From: an uncultured Oscillospiraceae bacterium
Lineage (GTDB): Bacteria > Bacillota > Clostridia > Oscillospirales > Oscillospiraceae
Direction: 5' to 3'
DNA length: 47,216 nucleotides
NCBI GenBank assembly: GCA_944385535.1
Contig: CALWXR010000017.1
Coordinates: 1-47,216 of the forward strand
Positions 2,437 through 47,216 of the stretch are shown here, piece after piece. Positions within the stretch are counted from its first letter, which is position 1; each line of letters opens with the position of its first letter. The position numbers were made by a program, and so were the translations under genes. The notes beneath the pieces are model-generated. The model was not told the origin of the DNA. It searched no databases and saw only the letters and a list, made by a program, of their open reading frames with translations.

Positions 2437-5400
2437 ATGCTGCAACACGGCCTATATGAACAAGTCATCAACAACGCCCTGAACAGCGAGCTGGCGGAAA
2501 TTCCGGAAGCCCGCAAGGCTGTTGCGCCCATTGACAAGGCGGAAGCCTCCAAGGTATTGGCCCAGTATCTGGCGGACGTGGTTCAGAAGGGCCTGGACAA
2601 TGTATTGGATAATGGTGGGGACCTCTCTGCCCAGGTTGGTCTTGCCAACAAAATTGTAGATCTCATTCAGAAAACCACACAGGAAGCTGACTTTGCCAAT
2701 CTGAGCGTGAGCCAGAGGGCAGAGCAGCTTCTTGCGCTTTTACGAGAGCAGGACCCCCGGTTGGCTACTGGAAGAAGCGCCGCTGACCTTCCCCGTCCGG
2801 AGACCTCCATTGCCCAAAGCAGTCTCTTTACCGGAGCTATCCAAGAGCCCCAGATGTATACCGAGCTGAAAAAGGAGATTCTCTCCTCTGACCGCATCGA
2901 TATGCTGGTGTCGTTCATCAAGTGGAGTGGCCTGCGCCTGCTGATGGATGAGCTTCGGGAGTTTACACAAAATGGCGGCGAGCTGCGCATTATCACGACC
3001 TCTTATATGGGTGCTACCGATGTAAAGGCGATTGAGGAGCTTCGTCAGCTGCCCAATACGAAAATCAAGGTCAGCTATGACACCAAGCGGACGCGTCTCC
3101 ACGCGAAAACCTATGTGTTCTATCGTAATACTGGCTTCACAACGGCTTACGTCGGCTCTTCCAACCTATCCAATGCGGCTATTTCCAGCGGTTTGGAGTG
3201 GAACGTGAAGGTCACGAAGAAAGATCTGCCGGAGACCATCGACAAGATTGCGGCTACCTTTGAGAGCTACTGGAACTCCAATGACTTTGAATATTATTCT
3301 GAGAATCAGAAGGAGCGTCTTGCCCGGGCACTGAACGCTGAAAAGTATTTCGGCTCCAATAATGCCGAAGTCTATACCATGGACATTACGCCGTATTCCT
3401 ACCAGCAGGAGATATTGGACAAACTGGAGGCAGAACGTACCGTCCGCGGATACAACCGCAATCTGGTCGTAGCTGCCACCGGCACCGGCAAAACCGTCAT
3501 TTCCGCTCTGGATTACAGGCGGTTCCGCAAGCAGAATCCGGACAGACCCTGCCGTCTGCTCTTTGTAGCCCACCGGGAAGAAATCCTCAAGCAGAGCCTG
3601 TACACCTTCCGGGCTGTGCTGAAGGATGCCAACTTCGGTGAGATGTTTGTAGGCAGCTATAAGCCGGACAGCATCGACAATCTCTTTATCTCCATCCAGG
3701 CCTTCAATTCTCAGGATTTTACGGCAAAGACGGCACCGGACTTCTACAATTACACCATAGTAGACGAATTCCATCATGCTGCAGCACCGACATATCAGAA
3801 GCTGCTGGCATACTATCAGCCCTACATCCTGCTGGGATTGACTGCTACCCCGGAGCGTATGGACGGCAAAAGCATCCTCTCCTATTTTGGGAACCGTATC
3901 GCGGCAGAAATCCGCCTGCCGGAAGCCATTGACCGGAAACTACTGTGCCCGTTCCAGTATTTTGGCGTCACGGATACTGTGGACTTGGATACTCTGAAAT
4001 GGAGTGCCGGCGGCTATGACAAGAGTGAGCTGACAAAGATTTATACCTTCAGCGGGGCGATGGCGCAACGGCGTGCCGATCTGGTAGTCTCGTCTTTGTT
4101 GAAATATGTCACCGATATTGATGAGGTAAAGGGACTTGGTTTCTGTGTCTCCATTGAACATGCGGAGTTTATGTGCCGTTATTTCAACGACCATGGCATT
4201 CCGTCCATGTATCTGACAGGCAGTTCCCCTGATGAGGAAAGGAAAACTGCCAAGCAACGCTTGGTTACAGGGGAAGTTCGTTTCATTTTCGTTGTGGACA
4301 TCTACAACGAAGGCGTGGATATTCCCGAGGTCAACACTGTGCTCTTCCTGCGTCCTACGGAGTCACTGACCGTGTTCCTACAGCAGCTGGGCCGTGGTCT
4401 TCGTCTGGCGGAGGATAAAGAGTGCCTGACCGTGTTGGACTTCATCGGACAGGCAAACAAGAAATACAACTTTGAGGATAAGTTTGCGGCATTACTCAGC
4501 AATACCACCCGTAGTGTCACACGGGAAATCAAGGATGGTTTCGTATCTGTACCCAAGGGCTGCTACATTCAGCTGGAAAAGAAAGCGGCTCGATATATTC
4601 TCGACAACATCCGTGCCTCCTACGGAAATACGGCTGGTCTGGTATCCCGGGTGGTCTCCTTTGCCGATGACACCGGCCTGGAACTGACTTTGAGCAATTT
4701 TCTGGACTACTACCATCTGGATCCCAGGGCGGTTTACAAGTTTACACCCTTCTCCCGACTTTGTGCAAGAGCCGATGTTTCACCTGATTTCCAGGAACCG
4801 CTGGAAGATATCTTGACGAAAGCCTTTTCGCGGCTGGCTGTCATTGATTCCCGCCGCTGGATCTCTTTCCTTCTCGATCTGCTTCCAAGGCTGGACGATG
4901 TAGATTTCACCGCGCTGCCGGAACTGCAAAAGCGAATGCTGCAGATGTTCTATATCACCATCTGGGGCAAGGCCGCAGAGGACTGGAGCAGCGACGAAGT
5001 GCTGGATAACCTCTATGCCCTTTCTGACAGCCCTGTTCTTCTGAGCGAACTGTTGGAGCTGCTCCGATATCGGTACGAAAAGATTGACTTTATTGATGAA
5101 CCGGTTGACCTGGGCTTCGATTGCCCGCTGGATCTGCACTGCACCTATACCCGCGACCAGTTGCTGGTTGCCTTAGATTTTTTGAAGCCTTCCACTGTCC
5201 GTGAGGGTGTAAAGTGGCTGCCGGAGAAGCAGTTGGATGTGTTCTTTGTGACACTCAATAAGGCTGACAAGGACTATTCGCCAACGACCATGTATAACGA
5301 CTATTCCATCAACGAGAGCCTGTTCCACTGGCAAAGCCAGAGCACGACAGCAGAAAACTCATCTACAGGTCAGCGTTATATCCACCATAGAGAACGTGGC

Positions 5401-18619: not shown

Positions 18620-18712
18620 GGGGCGGCCGCCGCATGGCAGGCCGCCCCTTCAGGGGGCTGTAGGGATGACCCTCATGGGGCCGATGCCTGAGCATCGGCC
18701 CCATGCTTCCGT
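18620..18712 (+). terminator. Double hairpin ending the transporter operon
   Basis: GGGGCGGCC (18620-18628) pairs with GGCCGCCCC (18640-18648). A second, stronger hairpin pairs CATGGGGCCGATGC (18674-18687) with GCATCGGCCCCATG (18692-18705), 14 bp with a CTGA loop, followed by CTTCCGTTTTCC. The second is a plausible intrinsic terminator. Confidence 0.6.
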
Positions 18713-18780
18713 TTTCCGGCGCCGCCCCTATGAAAAAGATGAATATGCTTACTGCCGGGGAACAAACGGGAAATTGGCGC

Positions 18781-19160
18781 AAGGGTTTGGCTGGTTCCAC
18801 GCCTAAGCGCTCCCCTACCCTGCCGGGGGCCTTCCTTTCTTGTCTCGGCAAGAAAGAAAGCAAAGAAGCCGACCGGGGAGGCGCTGAACGCTGGCCAGCT
18901 CCCGCGCCAGAGCCATTTCCCAGACTGAGCATTCCGATACCGGGCAGAAATTTTACCGGCGGAATGATGTTCGTGCGCATCATCCGCGGCGATTCGCCGC
19001 CCGCCCTCCCCGGGCCCCACCCGGCGCGCACTTGGTAAGCGCCGGTATACCCTTTCGCCGCTGAATGGGTGCGGTGCCCGAATCGGTCCACAGCATCCCA
19101 ATCACTGCCCAGCCTTGAGATTGCTTTCTCAGGGGACTTGCGGTGGAACCAATTGGCCGC
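18781..19160 (+). repeat. Dispersed repeat copy R1 (diverged, with insertion)
   Basis: Shares CTCCCCTACCCTGCCGGGGG, the TTGTCTCGGCAA hairpin core, GGCGCTGAACGCTGGCCAGC and CAGCATCCCAATCACTGCCC with the copies at 24.9 and 46.8 kb. It is in the same orientation as the 39.6-kb copy. About 85 bp (roughly 18915-18999) unrelated to the other copies interrupts it, and both ends are diverged. It occupies most of the 782-bp gap before the alpha-mannosidase gene. The remainder has a possible promoter: TTGACG (19216-19221) and TCTGAT (19239-19244). Confidence 0.8.
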
Positions 19161-39866: not shown

Positions 39867-40541
39867 TCACTCTGCCCACATGGAGAATTTATTCAGCCCT
39901 TCTTTGGAGCCGCATATGTAAAGGATGTCGCCCCGGCGGAATTTGTACTCCGGCCCCACAATTTCAATAAGACTGCTTTCATTCTCGATGGCAATGATAT
40001 TTACCCCGAAGTTTTTTCGCAGATTCACTTCCAGAACGGTTTTGTCTTCCATTTTCTTCGGGATCATCAGCTTTGAAATATTCAGCTTTTCGGACAGCTG
40101 GATGTAGTCCAGCATCCGGGACGCTTCCAGCCGGTGGGCAAGGCGGATTGCCATATCCTGTTCCGGGTACACCACCTTGGCTCCCAGCTTCTCCAGAATC
40201 TCCCCATGCTCCGCGCCGGTGGACTTTGCCATGACCGAGGGAATTCCCATGCTCACAAGATTCAAGGTGGTCAGAATGGACTGATCCATGGCTTCCCCGA
40301 TGCAGACCACCGCCACATCACAGTTTTGAATGCCGGTTTCGTACAGGGTTTTCTTATCCAGGGAGGGGACGACAAAGGCGTTGTCGGTGTATTCCCGCAT
40401 CTGCCTGATTTTTTCCTCGTCCCGGTCCAGGACGATCAGATCCGCGCCGGATTGGGCAAGCTCCAATGCCAGCGCCATGCCAAACCGCCCCAAACCGATA
40501 ATACCGTAGGTTGATTTGTCTTTCGCGCTTTTCTTAAACAT
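39867..40541 (-). CDS. trkA: Potassium uptake regulator TrkA/KtrA
   Basis: This 224-residue cytoplasmic RCK protein has a Rossmann RCK_N domain (about 12-135) with IIGLGRFGMALALELA and the nucleotide-ribose acidic residue in VLDRDEE, followed by RCK_C (about 140-220: NFGVNIIAI...IVGPEYKFRRGDILYICG). It forms the gating ring on the TrkH/KtrB channel and responds to nucleotides; RCK_C domains of Firmicutes can also bind c-di-AMP. GGAGGTATAAGAT precedes the ATG, 18 nt after trkH. It is the last gene of the permease-trkH-trkA operon. Confidence 0.92.
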   Translation of the reverse strand: MFKKSAKDKSTYGIIGLGRFGMALALELAQSGADLIVLDRDEEKIRQMREYTDNAFVVPSLDKKTLYETGIQNCDVAVVCIGEAMDQSILTTLNLVSMGIPSVMAKSTGAEHGEILEKLGAKVVYPEQDMAIRLAHRLEASRMLDYIQLSEKLNISKLMIPKKMEDKTVLEVNLRKNFGVNIIAIENESSLIEIVGPEYKFRRGDILYICGSKEGLNKFSMWAE

Positions 40542-40559: not shown

Positions 40560-41879
40560 TCATCCGATTGCAATATTTCCTTCCGGGTAAGCCGCTCGTT
40601 CGCCTCTGGTGAAGTACCACAGGGAGGCAACCGTCAGAGGGCCAAGGCGTCCGATATACATAACCAAAATGGACAGCAGCTTGGAGCCCACACTGAGGTT
40701 TGGCGTGATGCCGGTGGACAGGCCCACGGTGCCGAACGCGCTGGTAACTTCAAACAGCGCATCGATCATCGGCACATAGGGGTCCATAACGATCATCAGC
40801 CAGGTTCCGGTGAGCACAACCGTCAAGGCAAGCAATGTGATCACGGAAGCCTTCCGGAAAAGATCCCCGGGAATGGAATACTTAAAGGCCTTCTCCTGTC
40901 TGTTGGTTGCCGCCGACAGAATTCCTCTGAACAGCACAAAGAATGTGCTGGTCTTAATACCGCCGCCGGTGGATCCGGGAGAGGCGCCGATGAACATGAG
41001 CACCGTAAGCACCAAAAGTCCCGCGTCGGAGTAGCTTGCCATATTGGTGGTGGAAAAGCCGGCTGTACGGGCGGATACGCTGTGAAAATAGGCGCCGAGC
41101 CAGCTCTCGTCCTTTTGGGTCAGTTTGATTAATACGGTGCCGGAGATCAGCAGAAACGCCGTCACAGACAGGACGATCTTTGCGTGCATGGAATATTTCT
41201 TCCAATGAAACTTGTTCTTACGCATTTCCTGAATCACCAGGAAGCCAATACCGCCAAAGATAATCAGGCCGGTCGTCACCAGGTTCAGCAGGATATTGTC
41301 ATGATAGGCAAGCAGGTTTACATTGGAATACAGCTCCCCGGAATGTCCCAGAATATCAAAGCCCGAGTTGTTAAACGCCGCTATGCTGTGAAACAAGCTG
41401 TACCCCAGCGCCTCCAGAGGCGGGTAGTCCTGGACAAATACCAGAAAGCTGATGCCCGCGCCGGTCAGCTCGATGGTCAGGGTGGTCAAAAGCACCTGGC
41501 GAACGAAGCGGACGGTTCCTTTGCCGTTTCCCAGGTTGCTGGCCTCCTGAATGAGATTGCGTCCTTTCAGATTGATTTTTTTACCCATCAGCAGGATCAC
41601 ACCGGCGCCAACGGTTGTAACTCCCAAGCCGCCCACCTGGATCAGCATGGCAAGGAAAAACCGTCCGATTGGCGTAAAGGCCACGCCGGGGTCAATGGCA
41701 ACTAAGCCGGTCACGCACACGGCGCTGGTGGAAGTATAGAGGGCGTCGATATAGTGAACGTCCTGCCCCTCCTGCACGCTGCACGGCAGCATCAGCAGTC
41801 CCGACCCGATGAGAATCACCGCCGCGAAGCCAAGGGCAATGATTCGCCCGGGAGATAGTTTCATAATTCGTTTCAGCAT
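40560..41879 (-). CDS. trkH: Potassium channel/transporter TrkH/KtrB
   Basis: This 439-residue membrane protein has four repeated M1-P-M2 units. The four filter motifs are visible as CVTGL, FNNSGFD, RTAGFST and GTVGLSTG. The gating-loop segment IGASPGSTGGGIKTSTF lies after the third. It carries K+ (often with Na+) inward and works with TrkA. The size suits KtrB-like proteins. GGGAGGCTGAGCC precedes the start, and the gene begins 3 nt after the upstream permease stop. No kdpFABC pump genes are near. Confidence 0.93.
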   Translation of the reverse strand: MLKRIMKLSPGRIIALGFAAVILIGSGLLMLPCSVQEGQDVHYIDALYTSTSAVCVTGLVAIDPGVAFTPIGRFFLAMLIQVGGLGVTTVGAGVILLMGKKINLKGRNLIQEASNLGNGKGTVRFVRQVLLTTLTIELTGAGISFLVFVQDYPPLEALGYSLFHSIAAFNNSGFDILGHSGELYSNVNLLAYHDNILLNLVTTGLIIFGGIGFLVIQEMRKNKFHWKKYSMHAKIVLSVTAFLLISGTVLIKLTQKDESWLGAYFHSVSARTAGFSTTNMASYSDAGLLVLTVLMFIGASPGSTGGGIKTSTFFVLFRGILSAATNRQEKAFKYSIPGDLFRKASVITLLALTVVLTGTWLMIVMDPYVPMIDALFEVTSAFGTVGLSTGITPNLSVGSKLLSILVMYIGRLGPLTVASLWYFTRGERAAYPEGNIAIG

Positions 41880-41882
41880 GGC

Positions 41883-43190
41883 TCAGCCTCCCCATACCAT
41901 CCAAATGTAAATGTAACCGGCAAGCACCGCCGAGAGCGTAAAGGGAACGCCGATCCGCAAAAAGTCACGAAGCCTGACGGTTTCTCCGTTTTTACGCAGA
42001 ATGCCAATGGCGGCGATATTGGCAGATGCCCCGATGGGCGTCAGGTTGCCGCCAAGGGTCGCGCCGGTCAATAGGCCAAAATAGAATACATAGGGCTCCG
42101 CTCCCATCAGAAGAGAAATGCTCTGCACAACGGGCAGCATGGTGGCAACATAGGGAATGTTGTCAATAAACGCGGAGAGCACAACCGAAGCGAATACGAT
42201 AATCGTATACAGCAGGAAGGGATTGTCGCCCGCAAAATTATAGAACAAATCCGCCACCGCGTCAATGACACCGGCTGTTTTAATGCCTTCAATGACCATA
42301 AACAGCCCGAACAGCAAAAGCAGCGTATCCTTGTCCATATCGCACAGCACTTGCTTTAAGGCAGCCAGGGATTTTTTCTGAACACAGGCCCGAATCACGC
42401 CGATTACGCAAAGGGTTAAGCAAATCAAGCCGCTTCGGATATTGTATATGCCGCGCAGAAAAGCGTTTTCAGGCTCCGGCAGGAACGAGGCGACAATCAG
42501 AAGCCCCACTGCGCCAAGGAGCAAAAGGGAGGGGAAATAGTCCGTAACCGTTGTTTCCACTTTCGCGCTGACCGGCTGGCGGTCTTTTCTGAACAGCACC
42601 AAAAGAGCGATGCAAGATACAACCGCGCCCAGCTCCACGCCCCAGAAAATACCGGGCTTGCCGTTCATCCAGAAGAAGTCCAGAAAATTCATGCTGGCGA
42701 AGCTGCCCAGCAGCATGCTGGTGGTATCGCCTACCATGGTAGCCGCTCCCTGCAAATTGGAGGATACCGCAATGGCAATCAGAACGGGAACCGGGGATAT
42801 TTTCAGCTTGCGGGAAATTGCCAGACCGATGGGCGCCACCATCAGAACCGTTGCCACATTGTCCACAAAAGCGCTGACAATGCCCGCAAACAGGGCAAGG
42901 GCCGTTACCGCCCATTTCACATTGGGCACACGGGCAATCAAATGCTCCGCCAGCAAGGCGGGCATTTTGCTTTCAATAAAGAGGGTCACAATTCCCATGG
43001 TGCCCGCGATCATCAAAAGCACATTGTAATCCACGGCCCCCAGGGCTTGCATGGGCGTAAAATCGTATACGCCGGCCAGTCCCAGCAGAAGAAACAGCGC
43101 AGCGCCGGACAGGGCGATCCACGGCCTGTATTTCTGCAAGGTAAGCATCAGTATGTAAAGCACAAGGAAGATGCATAATGCGAGAATCAT
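41883..43190 (-). CDS. SLC13/ArsB-NhaD-like ion permease
   Basis: This 435-residue protein has about eleven membrane helices and two related halves. ArsB/NhaD/SLC13 hallmark segments are SAFVDNVATVLMVAPIG in the first half, AVSSNLQGAATMVGD, SAFIDNIPYVATMLPV and GGNLTPIGASANIAAIG. Family members move Na+ against H+, or carry anions such as arsenite or dicarboxylates. The operon with TrkHA favours Na+/H+ exchange or another role in ion balance, but that is inference. GGAGGCGGACTTT precedes the ATG. It is the first gene of the operon, downstream of the 43272 box. Confidence 0.85.
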   Translation of the reverse strand: MILALCIFLVLYILMLTLQKYRPWIALSGAALFLLLGLAGVYDFTPMQALGAVDYNVLLMIAGTMGIVTLFIESKMPALLAEHLIARVPNVKWAVTALALFAGIVSAFVDNVATVLMVAPIGLAISRKLKISPVPVLIAIAVSSNLQGAATMVGDTTSMLLGSFASMNFLDFFWMNGKPGIFWGVELGAVVSCIALLVLFRKDRQPVSAKVETTVTDYFPSLLLLGAVGLLIVASFLPEPENAFLRGIYNIRSGLICLTLCVIGVIRACVQKKSLAALKQVLCDMDKDTLLLLFGLFMVIEGIKTAGVIDAVADLFYNFAGDNPFLLYTIIVFASVVLSAFIDNIPYVATMLPVVQSISLLMGAEPYVFYFGLLTGATLGGNLTPIGASANIAAIGILRKNGETVRLRDFLRIGVPFTLSAVLAGYIYIWMVWGG

Positions 43191-43271
43191 AAAGTCCGCC
43201 TCCGAAGGTAAGTTTTCTTGGGTTTCATTTTACCGGAAAATATACAAAGATGCTCTTAAAACCGAAGCCGC

Positions 43272-43290
43272 CAGTTTAAGACGGCATTAA
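43272..43290 (-). promoter_or_regulatory. Putative KdpE/OmpR-type box upstream of the permease-trkHA operon
   Basis: Read on the minus strand this is TTAATGCCGTCTTAAACTG, about 80 bp upstream of the permease start. It contains an 11-bp-period repeat (ATCTTAATGCC followed by GTCTTAAACTG). It matches the site at 46805-46823 in 17 of 19 positions. Confidence 0.55.
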
Positions 43291-43303
43291 GATAATAGGT
43301 ACT

Positions 43304-43589
43304 GAATAACACAAAAAAGCTTGAAAGTCAAGGCTTTCCGTTTTCTTTCGTGTTATTCGGGTGCGAGGTTTTTGCTCGTATTAGAGCAAAAGCCTTGCGC
43401 CTGCTGATCCGGCATGGTACGCCATGCCGGATCAGATACCCATTGATTGCTGTCTGAATTCCATAAAAGCGGTTAAAAAGAGCCGCTTTTATGGAATTAC
43501 ACACCTTCCGTGTGTGAATAAGTCGTTATCACGGCTTATTCAGCAGACATTAAGATAGGACACCCGCTTTCCGAAGGCGTCCTATCTTA
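43304..43589. repeat. Array of seven consecutive hairpins
   Basis: H1 GAATAACAC (43304-43312)/43350-43358, with an inner AAAGCTTGA/TCAAGGCTTT; on the minus strand the inner part ends in T6. H2 43361-43377/43384-43400, 17 bp with three wobbles. H3 CTGATCCGGCATGG (43404-43417)/43422-43435, perfect. H4 AATTCCATAAAAGCGG (43457-43472)/43483-43498, perfect. H5 ACACAC (43499-43504)/43510-43515. H6 GAATAAGTCG (43516-43525)/43532-43541, one wobble. H7 TAAGATAGGACACC (43551-43564)/43576-43589, one mismatch. The stems differ in sequence, spacers are short, and no gene is present. Confidence 0.85.
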
Positions 43590-43596
43590 ACGCGCT

Positions 43597-43943
43597 CTAA
43601 ATGAGCAAATTCAAATTGTACGCATATTGCAGATAAAGAAAGCAGCCAAAGGCCCCCTTGTGTAACGGGTAAGCCAAGCGCAGTCGCAGTAGTGAATGAC
43701 AGCGTAAGTGGGCAGTCAGAGCCGCGACCGGGCTCGCCGCAGCGAGCTGTCACGGCGCAGCCGTGGCTGGGGATTGACGCGGCAGAGCGCTTCCCTTTTC
43801 GCCGGAGCGGGGGCGAATTCGCAGCATTTCACTGCACAATCCCTCAGGCCCTACGGGCCAGCTCCCTTTACATAAGGGAGCCTTGGGAGCTCCCGCTCCG
43901 GTGCGATTCCGAAATTGTGCATTTATCAAATCTGCTCATTTCG
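43597..43943. mobile_element. MITE-like element with CTAAATGAGCA termini
   Basis: The left end CTAAATGAGCAAATTCAA matches hairpin B at 33228 exactly. The right end, reversed, reads CGAAATGAGCAGATTTGA, an imperfect inverted repeat of it. It is about 347 bp, has no transposase, and ends 11 bp from the kdpE stop codon. It carries a second element nested inside (43646-43886). Confidence 0.65.
43646..43886. mobile_element. Nested MITE-like element with CCAAGGCTCCCTT-type ends
   Basis: CCAAAGGCCCCCTTGTGTAA (from 43646) and the reverse complement of 43864-43886 (CCAAGGCTCCCTTATGTAAA) form imperfect inverted termini of about 23 bp. The GC-rich inside has several short palindromes and no gene. From memory, similar ends occur in short repeats of gut Clostridia. 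Confidence 0.6.
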
Positions 43944-43954
43944 CGTTGATGCGG

Positions 43955-44647
43955 TTATAATTTCTGCATTCGGTAGCCGACGCCGATATGGGTTTGAATG
44001 TACTGGGCCTCTTCTTTTCCGGCGCTCAGCTTCTTTCGCAGGGTGGCCATGAAAACACGCAGGGACGCAATGTCGCTCTCCGTGGAGCTGCCCCAAACCT
44101 TCTGGGTGATAAAGGAGAGGGTCAGCACCTTGCCCACGTTCTGGGCCATGACGCACAGCAGCTTATACTCCATGGGGGTCAGATGCAGCTCCTGTTCCCC
44201 CAGCCAGGCGCATCCGGCAGCATAATCGATCTTCAGCTCTCCATTGGTGAACACGGGGCTTGGGGCGGAGGTTTGCATGAAGCTTAACCTTCGCTGGGTG
44301 ACCCGAAGCCGTGCCAGCAGTTCCTCCACCGAGAAGGGCTTGGTCAGATAATCGTCCGCGCCGGCGTCCAAAGCGTCGATCTTGTCGGTATCCTCCGCTC
44401 TGGCGCTGACCACGATGATTGGCATTTGGGACCATGTGCGAACCTTCCGGATGATTTCCACACCGTCCATATCGGGAAGTCCCAAATCAAGCAGCATAAT
44501 GTCCGGCTGGGCGGTGGAAGAGTGCATCAGGGCGGAAGCGCCGGTGGACGCGGTTATAAAACGATAATCGTGGGATTTCAGCGTGGCCGCCATTAAATTT
44601 CGGATGGCGGGATCGTCCTCCACCACTAAAACAAGAAATTTATTCAT
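43955..44647 (-). CDS. kdpE: KdpE-like OmpR-family response regulator
   Basis: This 230-residue regulator has a receiver (about 4-118) with the acidic pair Glu10-Asp11/Asp12, phospho-Asp54 in MLLDLGLPDMDG, Ser81 in VVSARAED and Lys103 in YLTKPF, and a winged-helix DNA-binding domain (about 135-229) with LTPMEYKLLCVMAQNVGKVL and IQTHIGVGYRM. All phosphorylation residues are present. It overlaps kdpD by 8 nt. Likely targets are its own operon and the permease-trkH-trkA operon, as the same 19-nt box precedes both. Confidence 0.92.
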   Translation of the reverse strand: MNKFLVLVVEDDPAIRNLMAATLKSHDYRFITASTGASALMHSSTAQPDIMLLDLGLPDMDGVEIIRKVRTWSQMPIIVVSARAEDTDKIDALDAGADDYLTKPFSVEELLARLRVTQRRLSFMQTSAPSPVFTNGELKIDYAAGCAWLGEQELHLTPMEYKLLCVMAQNVGKVLTLSFITQKVWGSSTESDIASLRVFMATLRKKLSAGKEEAQYIQTHIGVGYRMQKL

Positions 44648-46499
44648 GGATCGTCACCTCGCAAACGGGCAGTGTAAAGGCAAAGACACACCCCTTTGGT
44701 GTGTTATCGGTCACGGTGATTTCGCCGCCGTGCAAATGGATAATGGACTTGCACAGGTAAAGTCCCAGGCCCATGCTGCGGCGGCAGTCAACGATTTTGG
44801 TATTGCCGGTATAGAACATATCAAATACCTTCGGCTTGATTTCATCGGCAATGCCGGGGCCGTTATCGGCGACACGGACAAGGATCCGCTTCCCCTGCTT
44901 CCCGGCCGAGACGCGGATCTTCGACCCCTCCGGGGTGTATTTCACGGCGTTGTCCACCAGGTTGATGATTACCTGGCTGACCAGTCTGGCGTCCATTTTG
45001 GCCAAAAGAATCTCGTCAGAGAAATCCGTTTCCAAGACGTGGGTCTTGGCGCGAATATGCCGCAGGGATTCCATGATGACTTCGTCCACCAGTTCCGTGG
45101 TCATGTTCAGCTGGGTTTGCCCCTCGTCGATTTTGGTAATGGACAGCAGATTTTCCACCAGCCGGGTCAGCCAGATGGAGTCCTCATAAATCGCCGTCAG
45201 CAGATTGCGCTTGTCCGCGTCCTCCATCCCGGCGCCGCTGGCCAGCAGGGTCTGGGCATTGCCGGAAATGGAGGTCAGAGGCGTTCTCAGGTCATGGGAA
45301 ATGGAACGCAGGAGATTGGCCCGAAGCTGCTCGTTTTTCGCCAGAACAGCGGCTTCTTCCTTCTGCCTGGCATTTCGCCTGTTTTCCATGGCCAAAGCGC
45401 CTTCCCCAAAAATAGAATGCAGAATGCCGCTTTCCATTGGCTCCAGAGCGTCCCCGTAGATCAGCAGCTCTCCAAAGGATTCGCCGCCGCTTTGAAAAGA
45501 GAACCGCTGGGAGGGGGTGTCTGCGGAATCCTCAAAGGATTCCCCGTCGGGAACCCGCCGGATTGTCATTCCGTTTTTACACCGAAGAAGGAGCGGGCGG
45601 TTCAGCAATTTCAGAAGCTGATCCCCCATAACCTCCAAAATGTCCCCTTCCTCTTCCGCCCGGCCCAGCTGCTGGTTGGTTTCCAGCAGCACCTGGGTGC
45701 GCCAGGCCGTCTGGGTGGAACGCTTTACATGGTCGGCCAGGCGGTTTGCCAGCGTTCCTGTCAATAAAGAGGCGAACAGCATAATGGCAAAGGTCACCGG
45801 ATAGCCGGAGGCATAGGCGCGAAAGCTGAGCCGGGGTTCCGTGAAAAAGAAATTGAACAGCAGCACCCCCGCCATGGAGGAAATGCCGCTGCATACATAG
45901 TTTTTTGTGAACAGCGCGGTGAGCAGCACGCCCAAAATGTACACCGTAATGGTATTGGCCTCGGTAAAACGCAGCTTATGAAAGACAAACCCGATGGCCG
46001 TTGAAAGGGTCAGAATGCCGGCGGTGACCAGCACATCCTGGACAGAGGGCAGGATTCTTTGCTTGGTGGCGGGATTCGGACGCCGCTTGTTCTTGCCCGC
46101 CGTGTCAGGAATGATATAGATATCCAGATAGGGCGCTAGCTCCACCAGCTGTTCCGTCAGGGGCTTGGGCGCGAAAATTCTTCCTTTCGGGGCAGCGCTT
46201 CTGCCCAGTACAATTTTCGTAGCTTTGGAGATCCTGGCAAACTCCGCGATCTGGAACGCCACATCATCCCCGGTGACCGTAGAGACAGAAGCGCCCAGTT
46301 TTTCCGCCAGCCGGGTATGCCGCTGCAGGCGCTGCCTGTCCTCCGCTCCCATTTGGTCAGAGCTTTTGGTCTGCACATAAAGGGCGGTCATGGTCCCCCC
46401 AAAGGCCCGGGACAGCTTGGCGGCGGCGCGAATGGTATTCGCGTTTGAGGGAGCGGAGGACAGACAGACCAGGATATGCTCATGAATGACTTTTCCCAT
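44640..46499 (-). CDS. kdpD: Shortened KdpD-like sensor kinase (USP domain start)
   Basis: This 619-residue histidine kinase begins with a universal-stress-protein domain (about 5-130). It then has a four-helix DUF4118 membrane region (about 155-250), a GAF-like segment (about 270-375), HisKA with His402 in SISHDLRTPL, and HATPase_c with DNAVKYTPEGS, DNGPGI and GLGLYLCKSI. The roughly 210-residue N-terminal KdpD domain of E. coli KdpD (with its Walker motifs) is absent. The USP segment keeps most of a c-di-AMP-type motif (Ser14-Ser15-Ala16 then Met37-Thr-Ala-Leu-Tyr41). Start at 46499 follows AAGGAG. It senses K+ or c-di-AMP and phosphorylates KdpE. Confidence 0.88.
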   Translation of the reverse strand: MGKVIHEHILVCLSSAPSNANTIRAAAKLSRAFGGTMTALYVQTKSSDQMGAEDRQRLQRHTRLAEKLGASVSTVTGDDVAFQIAEFARISKATKIVLGRSAAPKGRIFAPKPLTEQLVELAPYLDIYIIPDTAGKNKRRPNPATKQRILPSVQDVLVTAGILTLSTAIGFVFHKLRFTEANTITVYILGVLLTALFTKNYVCSGISSMAGVLLFNFFFTEPRLSFRAYASGYPVTFAIMLFASLLTGTLANRLADHVKRSTQTAWRTQVLLETNQQLGRAEEEGDILEVMGDQLLKLLNRPLLLRCKNGMTIRRVPDGESFEDSADTPSQRFSFQSGGESFGELLIYGDALEPMESGILHSIFGEGALAMENRRNARQKEEAAVLAKNEQLRANLLRSISHDLRTPLTSISGNAQTLLASGAGMEDADKRNLLTAIYEDSIWLTRLVENLLSITKIDEGQTQLNMTTELVDEVIMESLRHIRAKTHVLETDFSDEILLAKMDARLVSQVIINLVDNAVKYTPEGSKIRVSAGKQGKRILVRVADNGPGIADEIKPKVFDMFYTGNTKIVDCRRSMGLGLYLCKSIIHLHGGEITVTDNTPKGCVFAFTLPVCEVTIHE

Positions 46500-46713
46500 T
46501 TTCCCGATTCTCCTTGCGCTGATACCGTTTGGAGCAATTCTCAGGATCCTCATCGGAATGGTCATGCCAAACGGAAGGGTCTACAAAAATGATTCTCCGC
46601 CTGCCCGGGAAGGCCCGGCGGTGTTTGCTCAGAAACTTGTCCGCTTTGCACGCAAAGATATATCCCACCGCGAACGTATAAATCATGCCTAAAATCAATA
46701 CCAATTCTTCCAT
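46480..46713 (-). CDS. Small membrane protein at head of kdpDE operon
   Basis: This 77-residue protein has one N-terminal membrane helix (EELVLILGMIYTFAVGYIFACKADKFL), then a basic stretch, a VDPSVWHD motif and a highly charged tail. AAGGAGGTGTGCCGA precedes the ATG at 46713; the GTG at 46722 lies in the ribosome binding site and is rejected. It overlaps kdpD by 20 nt, so translation is coupled. The function is unknown. Position and coupling suggest an accessory to KdpD, such as a signal input or membrane partner. Confidence 0.72.
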   Translation of the reverse strand: MEELVLILGMIYTFAVGYIFACKADKFLSKHRRAFPGRRRIIFVDPSVWHDHSDEDPENCSKRYQRKENRENGKSHS

Positions 46714-46828: not shown

Positions 46829-47216
46829 ATGCTTATCGACTTTGTTCAGCAAAGGCTCAGCCAGTGCCGGTGAGAGAGGAATGTTCGTTGGTTCCTCCGT
46901 GCTTCCCTGAAAAATGGCGGGCTTAAGGCTGGGCAGTGATTGGGATGCTGTGTACCGATTCGGACACTGCACCCATTCAGCGGTAAAAGGGCATACCGGC
47001 ACTTCCCAAGTGCGCGCCGGGAGGGGTCCGGGGAGGGCGGCTCTGGCGCGGGAGCTGGCCAGCGTTCAGCGCCTCCCCGGTCGGCTTCTTTGCTTCCTTT
47101 CTTGCCGAGACAAGAAAGGAAGGCCCCCGGCAGGGTAGAGGAGCACTTGGACGAGGGATGCGCCAAACCTTTCCTGCATTTGCATCATTCTTTCTGACAA
47201 AATAATTGGTTTCTTG
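46829..47216 (-). repeat. Dispersed repeat copy R4 (runs off the window end)
   Basis: Starts ATGCTTATCGACTTTG and follows R2 almost base for base, including the 12-bp stem CTTCCTTTCTTG (47093-47104)/47111-47122. It is cut by the window edge about 30-45 bp before the expected far terminus. It fills the 503-bp gene-free end of the window together with the kdp promoter. Confidence 0.85.

Follow-up and report, generated by a model that had tools for sequence, protein, structure and literature searches.

Six adjacent hairpins (H1 to H6) lying between the trk and kdpE genes of an uncultured Oscillospiraceae bacterium are likely to form a single non-autonomous, MITE-like transposon of 256 bp, inserted at TAAGATA, whose folded body matters as DNA. 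The insertion site of the element is the trk-kdpE intergenic region of the window, by which we mean the whole 47,216-nucleotide stretch of DNA that was analyzed. On one side of the hairpins, Pfam identified a CitMHS-type transporter gene (41883-43190) and the TrkH and TrkA genes (40560-41879 and 39867-40541, respectively), all on the minus strand. On the opposite side, and also on the minus strand, are a response-regulator gene (43955-44647) and the gene of its kinase (44640-46565), which we take to be kdpE and kdpD. No ORF of at least 100 aa is present in the element according to the ORF list of the window. A second dispersed repeat directly adjoins the element at 43595-43942; parts of it, namely 43595-43638 and 43646-43700, are found many times over in the same and in related genomes. 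The ORFs 18703-19038 and 46846-47166, located on opposite strands, share a near-identical peptide stretch and point to additional copies of a repeat within the window.

The first-pass annotation had described seven adjacent stem-loops at 43304-43589, two of them with perfect stems of 16 and 14 bp, and had suggested folding both strands against shuffled sequence. All seven were present in the fold, the two perfect stems being found at 43457-43498 and 43404-43435. The minimum free energy (MFE) of 43304-43589 was -149.6 kcal/mol on the plus strand, compared with a mean of -70.9 (sd 4.7) for 200 dinucleotide shuffles (z -16.7), and -136.5 kcal/mol on the minus strand (z -14.05); on neither strand did any shuffle fold as low. 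Folded alone as single-stranded DNA, the element (43294-43550) gave z -13.5 on the plus and -13.0 on the minus strand. Its layout consists of two four-way junctions with three hairpins in each: in module 1 the closing stem AATGNGTA/TACNCATT encloses H1, H2, and H3 and is followed by a linker, and in module 2 the closing stem TGTCTG/CAGACA encloses H4, H5, and H6 (Table 1). In the window copy, pairing of the module 1 closing stem is limited to 43298-43301 with 43437-43440. Neither the two closing stems nor the 7-bp direct repeat around H1-H6 had been noticed before, and while the hairpins themselves stand, the limits first drawn around them do not delimit the unit, as they start 9 bases inside the element and take in H7, which lies outside it. 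The statement that the stretch is neither a tandem repeat nor a CRISPR array was borne out, the sole direct family having two copies and containing the target duplication.

Table 1. Features of the element and of its immediate surroundings in the window
Feature	Position	Strand	Basis or remark
Left target site duplication TAAGATA	43288..43294	.	7-bp perfect direct repeat with 43551-43557
Mobile element, 256 bp	43295..43550	+	Dispersed copies, alignment, orthologous site without the element
Module 1 closing stem, 5' strand AATAGGTA (consensus AATGNGTA)	43294..43301	+	Pairs with 43437-43444
H1, with inner stem 43323-43338	43304..43358	+	Fold
H2, 19-bp stem; loop inverted in other copies	43359..43402	+	Fold, apex comparison
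H3, perfect 14-bp stem; loop mostly TNCG across copies	43404..43435	+	Fold, alignment
Module 1 closing stem, 3' strand TACCCATT	43437..43444	+	Covariation
Linker joining the modules	43445..43450	+	
Module 2 closing stem, 5' strand TGTCTG	43451..43456	+	Pairs with 43544-43549
H4, perfect 16-bp stem; apex GGTTNNNNNGAGCC in most genus-set copies	43457..43498	+	Fold, alignment
H5	43499..43515	+	
H6	43516..43541	+	
Module 2 closing stem, 3' strand CAGACA	43544..43549	+	
H7, native host hairpin outside the element	43550..43589	.	Left base = right duplication copy
Right target site duplication TAAGATA	43551..43557	.	7-bp repeat around H1-H6 only

The element has the ends ATA/ATG...CAT, with ATA in the window copy and ATG in the consensus. 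Its short similar ends, ATGNGTACTGAAYAA on the left and ATGTCTGCTGAATAA on the right, read inwards, are imperfect as terminal inverted repeats: AATGCGTACTGAATAA and AATGTCTGCTGAATAA agree in 13 of 16 letters, and the left end of the window copy in 12 of 16. With the left flank read as far as ATG and the right one from the base that follows the element, perfect duplications were found in 35 of the 63 distinct full-length copies described below (21 of 6 bp and 14 of 7 bp). Among the other 28, two bases match in 21, including one copy at a contig edge, and none in 7, and mispaired or shuffled flanks, used as a control, reach 5 bp or more in 3.7% of cases. Fifteen further copies carried duplications of 7 bp (10 copies), 6 bp (1), and 2 bp (2), or none (2). 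Over 45 perfect duplications the majority target forms were TA-N-W-T-A (6 bp) and TA-D-N-W-T-A (7 bp, mostly TA-W-N-A-T-A), the usual target thus being TA-N2/3-TA. A duplication length of 5-6 bp was discarded in favor of 6-7 bp because copies starting with G or C repeat that base in the right flank.

The same-genus genome G020 keeps the trk-kdpE gene order without the element, with an identity to the window of 85% on the kdpE side and 76% on the trk side. Its target is not letter-for-letter identical to that of the window, and the intergenic DNA farther on differs. Since an H7-like hairpin follows the single-copy target region in this genome, which has no element, H7 is native, and the long copies found elsewhere in the same and in same-genus genomes never cover it. 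The suggestion of an array of small mobile hairpins was therefore right about mobility and wrong about the unit: the hairpins do not move separately, as it is the whole six-hairpin unit that moves, and H7 is host DNA.

A search of the bacterium's own genome (2.85 Mb, 121 contigs) with positions 43240-43640 (401 bases) returned 58 matches, part of them to the neighboring repeat. Apart from the query itself, the long matches span about 43286-43553 with 68-94% identity; part of the short ones belong to the adjoining repeat from 43595 on. The element is also present in same-genus genomes, and HMM collection over the loci gathered yielded 75 full-length copies, of which 63 are distinct. In a survey of the genus, 15 of 136 genomes had a match at E 0.001, as did 15 among 394 genomes sampled from the order, several of the latter just through short, weak matches. 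The 15 further full or nearly full copies include representatives of one other genus (G349, G191, G221, G274, G429), of three more genera (G458, G367, G160), and of another family of the order (G177), besides one from the element's own genus (G147). Beyond the element's own genus, four or more genera of the family harbor related copies, and full-length matches across genera have 67-71% identity. A pattern scan of the genome contigs found at least 108 stretches, many of them chance-like. One copy, together with its near flanks, is identical between the bacterium's own genome and G014 (L035 and L061), which an insertion common to both, a recent transfer, or a contaminated draft genome would explain.

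The layout was also evaluated strictly, in each copy's own MFE structure, as six apices of at least 3 bp each plus both closing stems. Of the 63 copies, 45 show the whole layout, 61 the first closing stem, 59 the second, and 47 all six hairpins; the corresponding numbers for the 15 further copies were 5, 12, 10, and 7, five or more hairpins being present in 14. The first-pass annotation had proposed to look for array length variation in related genomes, and the number of hairpins does differ from copy to copy (L074, L077, L253, L250, L252). H2-H3 are missing in L074 and L077 and H4-H5 in L253, and intact duplications flank copies without H2-H3 or H4-H5 (L074, L076, L253). Smaller still are single-hairpin palindromes, those of 46 bp composed of the ends and H6 alone (L080, L082, L224, L250, L251) and those of 72-74 bp composed of the ends and H1 alone (L179, L228, L252). 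We infer that a simple palindrome underlies each module and that two further hairpins were set into it, an arrangement that these shorter relatives, whether the ends with one hairpin or the result of hairpin losses, fit. Because the flanks of L250 are inverted and not direct repeats, its small palindrome may stem from template switching and not from transposition.

Some copies have themselves been invaded. Another repeat lies inside element copies in L024 (about 2766-3244), L282 (1970-2540), L283 (2030-2545), and L030 (3016-3471), and in three of these the invaded hairpin, H1 in L024 and H5 in L282 and L283, is duplicated on both sides over about 18-19 bp by eye, as if the inserted repeat targeted hairpins. 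A 16-base remnant of the left end, flanked by TAAATA repeats, was also seen at about 2023-2040 of L257, and is possibly the footprint of a deletion or an excision.

Conservation of pairing was evaluated in 60 of the 63 copies, L042, L058, and L071 having been excluded before alignment for their deletions or insertions. Over 67 pairs, 97.3% of the cells hold standard pairs, and changes on both sides were found at 37 of the 67. In total, 519 cells are changed on both sides, compared with a mean of 156 after shuffling and 47-78 after sliding the partners, numbers in which the structure is favored over its slid versions because it was derived from the same alignment, and in which events are not independent because the copies are related. 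The number of further pair types in the same alignment was no higher than in shuffles (77 versus 79.8). H3 and H6 are imperfectly aligned, and the tested structure does not contain H6. The exchanges are evident in single pairs: column pair 5/150 of the module 1 closing stem is C-G in 27 copies, U-A in 19, G-C in 9, and unpaired in 5 (n=60), and in H3 both sides have changed at 10 of the 10 counted pairs. The 60-copy set also shows conserved apex motifs in H1 and H4. These results agree with the first-pass annotation, which had read compensating wobbles as a sign of kept structure; the structure is indeed kept, but the signal comes from double changes between copies and not from wobbles within one.

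Exactly inverted apex pairs were found six times among 76 copies, in H2 (3), H3 (1), H4 (1), and H5 (1), and never in H1 or H6. Reverse-only and complement-only strings, taken as controls, numbered 0; these controls are weak, since strings of either kind would disrupt the closing pairs. The idea that the loops of H4 are locked in orientation was ruled out by two exactly inverted apices from other genera. Over 103 close copy pairs (up to 12 substitutions), we counted 27 double changes from one Watson-Crick pair to another, compared with a mean of 2.1 and a maximum of 6 in simulation; they collapse to 7 distinct events, one of which involves the first column, itself counted as target DNA. Inverted loops together with paired double changes are the footprint expected of template switching between hairpin arms, a process proposed in PMC8794818, where, in the passages bearing on it, loop inversions are rare in the rRNA data.

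The pairing itself is probably kept at the DNA level, judging from the sequences, since G-U is rare on both strands and some loops are exact inversions. With wobble allowed, G-U made up 3.5% of the pairs on the plus strand and 3.8% on the minus strand, below the 9.9% of 19 tRNAs from the collected loci and the 11.6% of 30 shuffled copies. With wobble forbidden, single mismatches within Watson-Crick helices were GT/TG in 53 cases and AC/CA in 69 on the plus strand, and G-T in 69 and A-C in 50 when the minus strand was folded, and subfamily consensuses gave G-T to A-C ratios of 14:13 (12 clusters of at least 2, with 16 singletons excluded), 12:16 (16 clusters), and 3:7 (9 clusters). A fold selected as RNA should favor G-U over A-C on one strand, and the element does not, which argues against RNA. 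We therefore think it quite unlikely that the folded RNA of the mobile element is what is selected, be it co-transcribed and acting on mRNA stability or termination, or a transposition intermediate. The inverted apices in H2, H3, H4, and H5 speak against such an RNA as well, as does Rfam, in which neither the window nor the element copies of 11 loci had any match at the gathering score (the best weak match reached 26.6 bits against a cut-off of 100). The structured RNA considered in the first-pass annotation is thus not favored, although it gains some weight from the orientation of the copies: between co-directional genes (ORFs of at least 80 aa), 19 are sense and 3 antisense, the remaining ones being located between divergent or convergent genes (34) or having one side undetermined (7). 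This bias beside genes hints at an effect of an element transcript, but it is weaker under some of six stricter gene-call settings, all of them crude (10-16 sense versus 1-7 antisense, p 0.0005 to 0.13), and the window copy is antisense under a 150-aa gene call. Full-length pairing would also suit an RNA, as would the TNCG loops of H3, present in most copies and inverted in none of the 60-copy set, and one U-G pair of H4 kept in 59 of 60 copies. The view that H1, read on the minus strand, terminates kdpE gained no support: a simple terminator scan did not return H1, and the six consecutive A (T on the minus strand) that follow from its sequence here have been lost or never existed in most of the other aligned copies. 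In L197, 10 bases separate a T-box leader (RF00230, 1824-2059) from an element copy of the same strand (2070-2324).

It is also possible, though on the whole doubtful, that the element is an ordinary MITE in which only the ends count, and that its hairpins persist mainly by template-switch correction of quasi-palindromes, without selection on the fold. The exact loop inversions, the excess of paired double changes in close copies, and the missing preference for wobble would all follow, and the intact duplications on copies that lack H2-H3 or H4-H5 point the same way, as do L282 and L283, which come from one genome and hold an inserted repeat at H5 yet have different perfect duplications. In the MFE structures of many copies from other genera, moreover, one of the closing stems or hairpins is missing. 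This explanation fits less well with a length that stays near 256 and with the five or more hairpins of nearly all of the further copies, with full-length matches across genera, and with the conserved apex motifs of H1 and H4. At the other extreme is a transposon family whose entire body is conserved folded DNA, with two cloverleaf modules recognized in single-stranded or cruciform state by some enzyme and evolving by template switching that rewrites arms and flips loops; in this full form the proposal is speculative and rather unlikely. That an unrelated hairpin array or cruciform boundary arose and became fixed at the trk-kdp locus is what a single copy's look would suggest, but it is extremely improbable given the many dispersed copies of the same six hairpins and the gene order kept without H1-H6 in G020.

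For the MITE-like transposon that we prefer, a transposase is inferred because of the target duplications. Such an enzyme, making staggered cuts and supplied in trans from elsewhere, would move the element, and the folded body would play its part as extruded or single-stranded DNA while the element is excised or copied. Template switching between the arms would keep them complementary and flip some loops, while copies no longer able to fold would be lost. In a search by eye of four genomes (G018, G084, G349, G458), no otherwise unpaired facing ends with up to 2 mismatches were found 0.6-6 kb apart; gaps in the draft genomes may hide an autonomous partner. The partial copies and lone ends were deletions, nested repeats, small palindromes, and probable chance matches. 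A 337-aa ORF of G084 (L252), with three copies clustered around it within 2.1 kb, was rejected as a transposase, as it matches DUF4325 and, weakly, HATPase_c_2. In the genomes tested, none of three transposase families has a distribution that follows the element: DDE_Tnp_1 had 3 matches in G000 and 0 in G018, Y1_Tnp (PF01797) was present in G018 and G084 and was not found in G000 (99% complete) and G007 (85%), and Transposase_mut was present in G018 and G007 and was not found in G000 and G084. A phage or plasmid origin was discarded, as positions 43280-43562 had no blastn match in phage or plasmid collections, and so was an origin from viral contigs, whose 7 pattern matches reach no more than 4.9 bits with the element HMM.

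The element shares with MITEs its flanking target duplications (35 of 63 and 11 of 15 further copies) and its short (256 bp), dispersed form without a transposase gene, whereas ends shared with an autonomous element were not seen in the four genomes; as no such partner was found, MITE-like denotes here a way of working and not a proven membership. REP/BIME sequences are moved by a Y1 transposase (RAYT) without target duplication, and this system was rejected because target duplications are present and the Y1 transposase was not found in G000 and G007. Target duplications speak against an integron attC array too. The AAV terminal repeat, a palindrome with smaller hairpins set in, resembles each module in look, with no homology claimed, as it is not a dispersed bacterial element. 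Double-hairpin elements of mitochondria were reportedly described by Paquin in 2000. Like these and the GC clusters, as far as PMC4478555 describes them, the element is a mobile palindromic unit, but they are organellar and tens of bases long. The same source places the changes of GC42, which also occurs merged into a larger cluster, in loops, whereas the stems of the element vary by paired changes.

Closer to the element are the small mobile repeats ERIC, RUP, Correia/NEMIS, and YPAL, of about 100-200 bp and with long stem-loops according to passages of PMC2229807. They are likewise short, (nearly) non-coding, dispersed, strongly folded, and mostly flanked by target duplications, and most of them also have TA at their ends. 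In contrast to these repeats, as that source portrays them, the element consists of two multibranched three-hairpin modules covarying over 256 bp, has duplications of 6-7 bp, and has no partner found. The CIR of Caulobacter and Brucella, likened here by description, also have two structured arms and a linker, but measure about 110 bp with two long inverted repeats, one per arm (in the account of PMC2229807). The bcr of Bacillus cereus, similar by description and not by structure, are interspersed mobile repeats of 100-400 bp with a short AT-rich motif (TTTAT), and differ in host group and motif (PMC6542083, in the part that characterizes them). No earlier description of the element was recognized among the matches listed in the PMC literature, a scope outside which subscription papers mostly fall.

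The element represents a new family, of a kind that is itself known, of folded and mobile MITE-like sequences scattered among related gut bacteria of the Oscillospiraceae type. What is unusual is that nearly its whole length is kept as structure, apparently in DNA: accounts of small mobile repeats usually center on the ends, while in this element paired changes preserve the pairing from one end to the other, at the DNA level as far as the wobble test shows. An RNA search based on covariation could report such an element among structured RNAs. Its dozens of copies with duplications and subfamilies are a natural data set, which bears on whether covariation always means RNA function and on how often template switching rewrites hairpins.
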